A stretch of DNA of 64,000 nucleotides, taken from the NCBI RefSeq assembly GCF_001717585.1, contig NZ_CP017042.1, forward strand, positions 2,076,501 to 2,140,500, written 5' to 3'. The position numbers were made by a program, and so were the translations under genes. Origin of the DNA: Selenomonas sp. oral taxon 920 (GTDB taxonomy: Bacteria > Bacillota > Negativicutes > Selenomonadales > Selenomonadaceae). This document shows positions 42,976-56,810 of this stretch, in pieces. Under the pieces are notes generated by a model, which was not told where the DNA came from, did no database searches, and saw only the letters and a list, made by a program, of their open reading frames with translations. Within the stretch, counting starts at the first letter, position 1. The number at the start of each line of letters is the position of its first letter.

Positions 42976-42991
42976 GTACCGTATCGCAGAG

Positions 42992-43284
42992 GCGTGATGC
43001 GGTGTCACAAAGCGAACCTTAGTGAAGCAAGTGAGAAAATACTGACCTGTCCAAGAAGCAAGTCCGTAGGACGAAGCTGATTGGGAAACAGGTCGTATGG
43101 GAAAACGTCCCAAGAACACGAGCGATAGCGATGTGTGATTGGTTGACGTTGACCGCTCGCGCGGTACGCCCCGTCGGATTTCTTTCGTTCAAGCGAAGCG
43201 CGTTTAAGAAGTCCGACGGTATTTAAGCGTACAAGCGCACGATCACTTGCGCAACGAGGTGTTCGCGTGGGACACCCATCACGC
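42992..43284 (+). ncRNA. Structured intergenic element, copy A
   Basis: A nested series of stems closes the whole region: GCGTGAT/ATCACGC (42992-42998 with 43278-43284), GGTGTC/GACACC, GCGAAC/GTTCGC, GCAAGTGA/TCACTTGC (43027-43034 with 43243-43250), GTACGC/GCGTAC (43164-43169 with 43227-43232) and CCGTCGGA-type arms (43171-43184 with 43206-43219). Extra local hairpins occur at 43044-43094 (GACCTGT/ACAGGTC) and near 43153-43166. Copy B at 55997-56175 has the same order of stems with different paired sequence. Unpaired bases are conserved instead (CTTAGTG, AACGAGG, TTTCTTTCGTTCAAGCG). It could be an RNA gene, a cis element or a dispersed structured repeat; no protein gene is inside. Confidence 0.6.
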
Positions 43285-43329
43285 AGAACGACACAAAACT
43301 CAGCACAATGAAAAAGGAGGGGTTTTCCC

Positions 43330-53709: not shown

Positions 53710-55895
53710 TACGCAATCATCCCTTTCTTTTTCTGAAGGCGCTCAAGCACCTCGTAGCAGTTCGCCTTGACGGAGATGTATTCATCAATGCCCGCGTTGT
53801 TGTAAGTCTCAAGGAGATCCTTCGGCGCTGCGCCCGCGAGGAATACGCGCGCATTCGGCAGAACCTCGTGGAGCTTCGGTGCAAGTGCAGGCACGATCTC
53901 GGGATAGGTCGCATCCGTGGAGCAGATGACCACCGCATCCGCGCCGCTCTTGCCCGCCGCCTCGGCGGCCTCCTCGACGGTCTTGAACCCGTCGTTGCCG
54001 AGCACCTCGAACGCGCCGACCTGCAGGAAGCCTGTGGTAAAGTCTGCACGCGCCTTGTGCTGCGGGATGGGGCCCATGTTCGCGAGGAATATCTTGACGT
54101 TGTCGTTCTTCTGTGCCTTGTAGTCCTCGGTGCGGCGGCGCAGTGCCTCAAAACGCTCGCTCCAGCGGTGCGGTGCGATCGCCGTGACCGTCTCCGCCGC
54201 GCCCTTGCCGTCCGTGACCGCCGCCATCAGCTCTGCAATCGTCGCACCTGCAAACGCCGCCTCGATGCCGTGCTCGAGTGTGCCGTCCGCCTTGAATGCC
54301 GCAAGCACCTCGTCGCGGTGCTTTGTGTCGATGTCGGAGAGATATGCCTCGATGTCTTTCGTGCGCTGTGCCTTGAGTGCCGCCGTATCCTCCGCACGCG
54401 TTTCGAGCAGGACCTCTGTCATGTTCGGGTACATATTGTTGCCGACGATGCGGTCTTTGCGGATGTCCGCCTTCTTGAAGCGGTCTGCGAGAATCTTTGC
54501 GATCTCGTCCTGCACCGAGCCGGCACGGAGTGCCGCAACGATGCCGCCCTGCTTTTCGATGCTCTGGAACTCTGCCCAGATCTTTTCCTTCATCTGGCGT
54601 GTCAGCGTCTCAACCGCCCACGAACCGCCCGCAGGATCGATCGGCTGCAGCATGCCGAACTCCTCCTGCAGCATGATCTGGATGTTGCGTGCAATGCGGC
54701 GAGAGAACTCGTCTCCCTTGCGGATGGGCTCGTCGAACGGCGCACTCTCGAACGAATCGATGCCGCCCACAACGCCCGAGAAGATCTCCGTCGTGTTGCG
54801 GAGCATGTTGACGTACGGATCGTAGATAGTCTTGAAGAAGAGCGCAGGACGTGCGTGAATCCGCATCTTCTGCGACTCGGCATTGCCGCCGAACGCCTTG
54901 ACGATCTGTGCCCAGATGGGGCGCACAGCGCGCAGTTTTGCGATCTGCAGGAAGAAGTTCGCGCCCATCGAGAAGCCGAACGCAATCTGTCCTGCCGCCT
55001 CGTCAACCGTCAGCCCGCGCTCGCACAGCGCACGCAGATACGCTGCTGCCGTCGCCAGACACGCTGCGACCTCCTGCACATCGTTTGCACCGCCGCTGCT
55101 GTAGACATCGCTGCGGACAAACACCGTGCGCAGATGCGGCGCATGTGTTGTCGCCCAGCGTGCCGCTGCGGCGAGGCTGTCATAGTGTGCGTCGAGCGAT
55201 GCGGGGAGCTTGCCGTCGGTCACGAGTGCGCCGATCGGGTCTGCCCCAACGATGCCCTGCACCTTCGTCATGTCGTCCCCTGCCGCACGGCGTGCCGCCG
55301 CGACGAGCGAGAGGAGCGGGAGAGCATTCGCACCCGCATAGACATAGAGCGGAAACTTCGCGAGATCAAGCCCCTCAAGGAGCGTGTGCATATCGTCGAC
55401 CGTCGTCACGCTCGTGCCGATGTCGCCGACCTTCTCCGCCTGACGCGCATCCACACCCGCACGCGAAGCGGTGTCGAGCACGATATGATAGATCGTCGAC
55501 CCCTTGTCGTTCTCGTGCCGCAGGAGCTCATTGTTCTCGGAGGGCAGTGTCTCGTCACATGCCTGCGCGATGCCCCACGGCTTTCCGATGTAGCCGGCGG
55601 GATCCACGCCGCGCAGGTAGTCGCCCATGCCGGGCATGATGCTCTTCGGCAGGATGTCCTCCGTGTGTTTCCGCGTATACATAGGGTCAAAGGTGATGCC
55701 CTCGTAGGTCTTCGTGAACATGACCTTCTCATAGGGAGCACCCTTGAGCAGCGCTTCACACGCTTCCTTCCACTCCGCATCCGTCGGCGGCGTAAATTCA
55801 TCGAGCGAGACATCGGGGAAGTCCTCGACATCCGCAGATTTCTTCAGAAGCTTCTGAAGTTCTTCGTCACTCGACCGCTCTTTTTCTTCCGGCAT
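53709..55895 (-). CDS. mutA: Methylmalonyl-CoA mutase, small subunit
   Basis: 728 residues, same fold as MutB but without the DxHxxG cobalamin ligand in its C-terminal domain ([21 protein letters not shown], then [19 protein letters not shown]), as usual for the non-catalytic subunit. N-terminal [28 protein letters not shown]. The ATG at 55895 follows AAGGAGGA. First gene of mutA-mutB-meaB-msrA-like. The epimerase and decarboxylase genes of the pathway are not in the window. Confidence 0.95.
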
Positions 55896-55933
55896 AGTAC
55901 GTCCTCCTTTAATTTATTGCGGGAAGGCTCTGC

Positions 55934-55948
55934 TAGTTCTATGAACTA
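55934..55948. promoter_or_regulatory. Possible operator upstream of mutA
   Basis: Perfect palindrome TAGTTC-TAT-GAACTA, about 40 bases before the mutA start. No convincing -10 box was found, so its role is a guess. Confidence 0.35.
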
Positions 55949-55996
55949 ACACAAAAGTAAAGCAATTCTGTGCAGGAAGGAGATGTGTTCGTGGCA

Positions 55997-56175
55997 ATCT
56001 GTGCGATGCTCCAAAGCAAACCCTAGTGGAGCAAGCGGAAGCGAGGACACGTTCTGCCCCTGCGGATTTCTTTCGTTCAAGCGCGCAGCGCGCGTTTAAG
56101 AAGTCCGCAGGTATTTAGGCAGATAAGTGTCCGACCGCTTGCGTAACGAGGCGTTTGCGTGGAGTTCGCACAGAT
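55997..56175 (+). ncRNA. Structured intergenic element, copy B
   Basis: Nested stems in the same order as copy A: ATCTGTGCGA/TCGCACAGAT (55997-56006 with 56166-56175), CTCCA/TGGAG, GCAAAC/GTTTGC (56016-56021 with 56153-56158), GCAAGCGG/CCGCTTGC (56031-56038 with 56135-56142), GGACAC/GTGTCC, TCTGCC/GGCAGA (56053-56058 with 56118-56123) and CTGCGGA-type arms (56060-56072 with 56098-56110). It lacks the extra hairpins of copy A. Paired bases differ from copy A in a compensatory way, while CTAGTG, AACGAGG, GTATTTA and the apical loop are kept. It lies between mutA and the cobalamin riboswitch, with neighbours on the opposite strand. Confidence 0.6.
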
Positions 56176-56211
56176 GGCTATTTGACATCATACACGGAAT
56201 TGCATTCCTTG

Positions 56212-56246
56212 AAAAAAAATCGCTCTGAGCTTCCACCCTCAGAGCG
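56212..56246 (-). terminator. Strong terminator downstream of the riboswitch leader
   Basis: CGCTCTGAG (56221-56229) and CTCAGAGCG (56238-56246), followed on the minus strand by eight T (56212-56219). It closes whatever is transcribed from the riboswitch promoter before reaching copy B and mutA. Confidence 0.82.
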
Positions 56247-56343
56247 CGCCCCTAATACAAAGGGGCAAAACGAGAACTGAAAAGATGAGCAATGTTTCCC
56301 CAAGGAGCGCATACTCCTTCATCCCGGGGAAATCTCTGGGCAT
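56239..56343 (-). CDS. Possible 34-aa hydrophobic peptide under the riboswitch, doubtful
   Basis: Frame from ATG 56343 (or 56322, 27 residues) to a TGA at 56239 lying inside the terminator stem. The end of the peptide (LLIFSVLVLPLCIRGAL) would form a membrane helix. It is the only open frame between the riboswitch's hairpin and the strong terminator, but no ribosome site is visible for either start. It may be a small membrane protein, a remnant of a lost B12 gene, or chance. Confidence 0.25.
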   Translation of the reverse strand: MPRDFPGMKEYALLGETLLIFSVLVLPLCIRGAL

Positions 56344-56416
56344 GGGATTCTTTTCACATGCACACAGATCTCCTCAGGATCGCTCCACACGCCGCAAGAA
56401 GGGTGTTCTATGCAAA

Positions 56417-56455
56417 GAAAAAGCCCTTTCCGCGGTGTGCAGAACGGGCTTTTTC
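56417..56455 (-). terminator. Terminator hairpin of the cobalamin riboswitch
   Basis: GAAAAAGCCC (56417-56426) and GGGCTTTTTC (56446-56455) form the stem; on the minus strand the descending arm ends in TTTTTC. About 110 bases downstream of the B12 box, it is the likely expression platform. Confidence 0.7.
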
Positions 56456-56564
56456 GGTATCGTTACTCAGTTCCCCATGTGGTCCGGTCTAAGCGCCAAA
56501 CTCTCTCTCGAGGCGAACGAATCCGCAAAATCTCCATCCCCATCACTCGCAGGTCAATCGGTGA

Positions 56565-56765
56565 TTGTTAATCAAGCAGGTCTCCTGGCTCCAGTTCATC
56601 GCTCATCCACACCTTCCCGGAGATTTCTCCCCAGTGACTGCTGACGCGAGGTCAGCGCGTGGACTCGCTCCCTGTTACAGTGGCGTGACCGCTCCGGCTT
56701 ATGAAATCAATGATTCCCATACCGGATTCCCTATGAAGCATTGAGGCTTTGATGATGTCAAAACC
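56565..56765 (-). ncRNA. Cobalamin riboswitch
   Basis: On the minus strand the element carries GGTATGGGAATC near its 5' end, the AAGCCGGAGCGGTCACGCC-type core with GCCACTGT, and the B12 box AGCCAGGAGACCTGC (56571-56592 region). These are the hallmark parts of AdoCbl-binding riboswitches. A consensus promoter lies upstream and terminators follow. No recognisable B12 transport or synthesis gene follows; the next gene is the B12-dependent mutase operon about 670 bases away, beyond two terminators. Boundaries are approximate. Confidence 0.88.
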
Positions 56766-56810
56766 TCTGCACTTGATCCAATACATATTTAGTTTTTATG
56801 GTACGATAGA

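Follow-up and report, generated by a model that had tools for sequence, protein, structure and literature searches.

A hairpin repeat found twice in the window (the whole stretch of 64,000 nucleotides from Selenomonas sp. oral taxon 920 analysed here) belongs to a family of non-autonomous MITE-like elements of Selenomonadaceae that occurs dozens of times per genome. We favour, at a probability of roughly 0.65, a reading in which this family carries a long covarying hairpin core, was moved by an ISL3-type transposase and, less certainly, has a plus strand that works when folded.

Two copies of a nested hairpin

Copy 1 lies on the plus strand between two genes that, from their protein sequences, we take to be fruK-like and fruA-like. 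Its nested hairpin occupies positions 42992-43284 within an inferred inserted stretch of about 332 bp (42976-43307, exact ends uncertain). Copy 2, also on the plus strand, lies between a presumably mutA-like gene and its riboswitch, with the hairpin at 55997-56175 in an inferred inserted stretch of about 220 bp (55975-56194). The region 42976-43300 folds as one nested hairpin at -144.6 kcal/mol (z -9.6; 0 of 100 shuffles as stable), and 55980-56195 does so at -120.3 kcal/mol (z -10.6; 0 of 200 shuffles as stable). The apical domain with its loop, which is conserved across genera, lies at 43173-43217 in copy 1 and, in the sequence as read, at 56061-56110 in copy 2, both on the plus strand. Each domain matches TTTCTTTCGTTCAAGCG, a motif that with up to three mismatches allowed has two occurrences in the window, both exact, where 0.19 are expected. 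Neither copy wholly contains a reading frame of 80 amino acids or more.

The original prediction had described compensating base changes in one nested hairpin, with a shared order of stems and different outer stems. Both copies read and fold as described, and the shared order stands. The difference in the outer stems does not hold throughout, as these consist of a recognisable inner part (roughly TGCGATGYYCC / GGRCACGCA) and a variable outer part. Copy 1 additionally carries a structured insert of about 120 bp in its 5' arm (insert A, about 43040-43159, plus strand), which is missing from copy 2 and from the other short copies.

Copy 1 is absent from the orthologous sites in G002, G009 and G005 (loci L092, L094 and L095), where 2-6 bases lie between the aligned flanks, and copy 2 is absent from those in G009, G005 and G002 (L106, L107 and L113). 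Empty orthologous sites were found for further copies as well. Together with the dispersed copies and the maintained fold, these sites bear out the proposal of a mobile structured element, and the mobility of the hairpin element is well supported.

The surroundings of both copies have features of their own. A cobalamin riboswitch (56558-56791, minus strand) lies in the leader of the mutA-like gene (55895-56791), and copy 2 is inserted, in antisense, between this riboswitch and the start codon; the orthologous leaders of G002, G005 and G009 have no such insertion. The gap between the fruK-like and fruA-like genes is a hot spot (copy 1 of the window, L096 and L098-L101) that holds different copies in different genomes and in both orientations, with one copy nested within the arms of another in L096 and L099.

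Pairing is maintained while the paired letters change

Among the 51 predicted pairs of alignment A1 (thirteen short copies aligned by sequence alone), 22 show a double change that keeps the pairing. In an alignment of 82 distinct copies fitted to the covariance model, 95.6% of cells are paired and 31 of 51 pairs contain double changes, with 446 double-change cells against 146.5 (sd 11.5) in shuffles. The covariation score is 0.339, compared with 0.031-0.085 when the partners are slid by 1-3 columns. A divergent set of 14 sequences from other genera, again aligned by sequence alone, has double changes in 41 of 60 pairs. Its double-change cells number 157, compared with 46.9 for shuffles and 69 for the highest of the slid versions; the structure prediction used this very alignment and so has an advantage in the comparison. 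Alignment A3 was left out of the counts, as its row L198 came from the wrong stretch. The wrongly centred stretches L168, L174, L178, L179, L182 and L189 were discarded when copies from other genera were read.

From genus to genus the stems are largely replaced. What stays is a loop similar in sequence to CGTYCAAGCGNAGCGCGTTTAA, together with three-by-three internal loops that carry G..A on each strand. Twelve comparisons of orthologous copies give the short-term picture: of 16 changes that started from a paired state, 11 preserved the pair and five broke it, a further four changes mended a mispair, and no double change was seen in the modelled pairs. At the orthologous site of copy 2, one outer pair reads T-A, T.G and C-G in three genomes. 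Over the family as a whole, pairing is maintained while the paired letters change.

Copy number and distribution

A BLAST search with copy 2 returned 27 pieces in its own genome at E <=1. Covariance model R1 gave at least 24 matches in this genome and at least 28, 74, 40, 54, 39 and 36 in six others of the genus, all lower bounds at E <=0.001 with 150 candidates scored per genome; two other genomes of the genus had 0 matches at that threshold. In the family, 41 of the 151 genomes scanned had matches, and these represent 10 of the 30 genera (E <=0.001); in a class-wide draw of 300 genomes all 27 with matches (E <=1e-5) fell within the element's own family. The scan of Selenomonas and other Negativicutes genomes that had been suggested at the outset thus yielded many further copies, which covary beyond shuffles. 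An apical-loop scan of named genomes gave at least 80 loci. The matches listed include the oral species S. infelix, S. felix, S. noxia, S. flueggei, S. massiliensis and Centipeda periodontii, together with rumen Selenomonas and one Mitsuokella bin. Also among them are three bins whose labels may be wrong, two given as Bacteroidaceae and one as Clostridiales.

Copies adjoin many different genes, which rules out the leader of one gene, and a terminator was rejected since no T run was seen after the arms in the copies inspected. The original prediction held that copies are not tied to the direction of their neighbours. Both orientations do occur, yet 40 of 42 copies lie between two genes that share a strand, antisense to these genes in 26 cases and sense in 14 (53 copies examined, orthologous duplicates included, of which 42 had confident gene calls and 11 did not). 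Viral spread was also considered and set aside: four viral contigs carry the 17-base motif inside open reading frames with no hairpin around it, and we take these matches as chance.

Termini, target duplications and a candidate transposase

Complete copies measure about 215-240 bp, or longer with inserts, and are flanked by GGYTCTATGATAAATGTTACGGA-like repeats. The span from one pattern match to the other is 207-231 bp, rising to 332 bp with insert A and 381 bp with another insert. The terminal pattern has 116 matches in 11 of 14 genomes, against 3 for the reversed control. Target duplications of 8 bp are perfect in 8 of 24 copies (0.37 expected), and at least 7 of 8 letters agree in 13 of 24 (0.86 expected). 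Since the 24 copies include two orthologous pairs (L018/L256 and L259/L356), along with three short degenerate matches, the eight perfect duplications represent seven insertions. The clean empty site of L003 suggests duplication of TA only.

Neither copy in the window has termini recognisable to the pattern scan, the best match at either being 13 of 23, a level reached or exceeded by 30 of 400 random window stretches. In inferred inserted length, copy 1 is close to complete copies that carry insert A, and copy 2 to those that lack it.

Of 40 genomes, 16 have a match to an ISL3 transposase. Within the genus, five genomes with long ISL3 matches (G001, G002, G006, G007 and G012) have 5, 18, 21, 34 and 21 terminal matches, whereas the eight genomes without an ISL3 match have 0-6 and G009, with an ISL3 fragment, has 2. 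Ends like those of the hairpin element are found in 8 of 22 ISL3 loci (0 of 22 for reversed patterns), six of these eight resting on a composite pattern built after seeing one of the ends; in most of the loci just a single such end was identified. At six ISL3 loci (L289, L290, L294, L296, L305 and L316) at most one element-like end was identified. L304, in the same genus, is an ISL3 element whose ends are clear and whose 8-bp duplication is perfect, but its end letters differ, and G007, the genome richest in terminal matches, holds ISL3 copies with other ends. Taken together, the ends, the duplications and the co-occurrence across genomes make it likely that an ISL3 transposase moved the complete copies.

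The concern that the hairpin might be an inactive fragment of a protein-coding transposon is answered, as far as tested, by the loci with an ISL3 transposase match, of which 29 of 30 lack a hairpin match and one has it. An autonomous element between far-apart terminal repeats was likewise rejected, as L267 and L268 enclose ordinary-looking host genes between two copies. At the L003 site, a pre-existing palindrome was discarded as the source of the arms, since the corresponding empty sites L064 and L066 have none.

The large hairpin and the dispersed copies would also suit a guide-type RNA of IscB or TnpB (HEARO-like) or the hairpin of a single-strand transposase (REP/RAYT, IS200/IS605). The HEARO model, one of the Rfam models searched, has no match up to E 10 in either copy of the window and none at gathering scores in 13 further loci. 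To our knowledge single-strand transposition makes no target duplication, and 8-bp duplications are present here. We regard this origin as very improbable. More generally, Rfam at gathering scores finds only the cobalamin riboswitch in the whole window, outside both copies. With the cutoff relaxed to E 10, copy 1 stays unmatched and copy 2 has only a chance snoRNA match at its right end; the weak microRNA matches are what any hairpin gives, and no Rfam family fits. The expectation that the element matches no known RNA family is thereby upheld.

Nested insertions, inverted cores and remnants

Insert A is itself a dispersed structured unit. We counted 16 distinct copies in the fetched loci, nine of them within this hairpin and on the same strand. 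Of the remaining seven, five lie among other hairpin repeats, the one in L139 is cut by the locus end, and the one in L390 (a Mitsuokella bin) lies within a related hairpin in the other orientation. Beyond the window, sites of insert A include L070, L273, L284, L326, L381 and L390. A further dispersed repeat, whose ends resemble GGGAATCGCTGATAAA, is found within hairpin copies or next to them in L017, L018, L085, L108, L120, L142 and L147.

At one orthologous site (L034 and L047), the flanks align in opposite orientation and the core in the same orientation at 96% identity, so that the core flipped in place between G006 and G002; in G006 it is also inverted relative to its own terminal repeats. 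L072, L093 and L142 are remnants that have lost internal parts and retain the outer arms, which is what an unstable palindrome would be expected to leave. In rumen Selenomonas (G111, G127 and G135), hairpins of two types form a head-to-head pair, and the unit that contains them is about 570 bp long and ends in AAATTACAGTTTG.

These observations bear on whether the repeat could be the gene of a stand-alone small RNA that is incidentally mobile and acts in trans on the host. The deep conservation of loop and fold would fit such a gene. A copy number that ranges from 0 to 74 in one genus, placement in either orientation beside the neighbouring genes, remnants with internal deletions (L072 and L093) and complete transposon-like termini all argue against it, and we consider it improbable.

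Possible selection on a folded strand

Were the palindrome all that counts, the plus strand should show G.T and A.C with equal frequency. With the wobble as the minor state, alignment A2 has 134 G.U against 42 A.C cells (29 against 6 pairs, p 1e-4) and A1 has 23 against 11 (17 against 5 pairs, p 0.017). The divergent set A4, with 18 G.U and 23 A.C cells in 13 and 13 pairs, has no G.U preference. The rumen copies are mixed: with one side changed, 34 cells of type II still pair and 8 become A.C, and for type I 37 still pair and 27 become A.C, 19 of the latter in a small stem outside the main hairpin. Sequences with more than 12% differences were dropped from these counts, 4 of 49 for type I and 3 of 24 for type II. 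The G.U excess is therefore evident among the oral genus's recent copies and lacking at depth; cells do not count as independent events, and the same signal would be expected from a single DNA strand.

A purely DNA-level palindromic MITE could account for part of these data. Its arms would be kept alike by arm-to-arm copying (quasi-palindrome correction or template switching) or through a DNA hairpin, with no RNA selected. Several other genera have single hairpins whose arms, 15-20 bp long and nearly perfect, vary between copies; the rumen copies have hybrid arms, cores flip in place, and the divergent set lacks the G.U preference, all of which speak for this explanation. However, arm-to-arm copying should erase internal loops, and the conserved internal loops persist in every alignment set read; recent copies, moreover, favour G.U. 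We hold this explanation to be possible, though rather unlikely. A palindrome at the DNA level accounts for the mobility. The retained internal loops and the preference for G.U over A.C in recent copies suggest selection on a folded plus strand, which probably acts as RNA, making an RNA function of the hairpin plausible.

Under the reading we favour, an ISL3-type transposase acting on the termini would have moved the complete copies, and copies without recognisable termini, both of those in the window included, would be old or derived. With less certainty, the shape of the core would be kept since the plus strand works folded, most likely as RNA. This RNA could be read from the element itself or within a surrounding transcript and might be bound or processed via the conserved apical loop, which in turn may make insertions tolerable or help the element spread.

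A bolder form of this reading, which we offer tentatively and think doubtful, would make the hairpin a portable RNA domain riding on different transposon ends, ISL3-like in oral Selenomonas and the AAATTACAGTTTG head-to-head unit in the rumen, with plus-strand selection across 10 genera. If true, a transposon-borne RNA function would have outlived the near-total replacement of its stems. The interiors of MITEs are usually treated as drifting transposon debris; here the interior is the best-kept part, with a single fold and a single loop across ten genera although the stems have been replaced. If selection acts on the folded strand, the family would amount to an experiment of nature on the reason for hairpins in small mobile repeats. 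Material to compare comes from dozens of copies in each genome, from empty sites and flipped cores, and from nested insertions and internal deletions.

Comparison with known elements

A full-text search of one PMC collection returned no paper on such a Selenomonas element, and the portion of PMC8040213 available makes no mention of Selenomonas. Correia/NEMIS, ERIC and RUP are small non-coding dispersed repeats, with empty and filled sites, whose transcripts are said to form long stem loops and may affect surrounding transcripts, according to the available part of PMC2229807. The Selenomonas element shares with them the dispersed non-coding stem-loop repeats and the empty and filled sites. They are described there with TA at their termini, whereas the Selenomonas element has 8-bp duplications, ISL3-like ends and a conserved loop and covarying fold across genera. 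Closest in layout is QMITE2 of another host, Coxiella burnetii, likened here by description only, with direct repeats of 7-9 bp, terminal repeats of 23-29 bp, a core of 113-145 bp and a predicted transcript that is strongly folded. The description in the accessible part of PMC10969869 includes no evidence of covariation, whereas the Selenomonas element covaries. The pneumococcal BOX, RUP and SPRITE repeats are likewise interspersed and structured, in another host (excerpts of PMC3049150 and PMC10969869).

ISL3-family insertion sequences have terminal repeats similar to those of the element and the same 8-bp duplication, but they carry a transposase, whereas the hairpin element has no transposase gene. 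BOX repeats have a modular layout, which is not seen in the Selenomonas element. Stem-loop MITEs as such are already known, and the hairpin element is a new, well-kept family of them.
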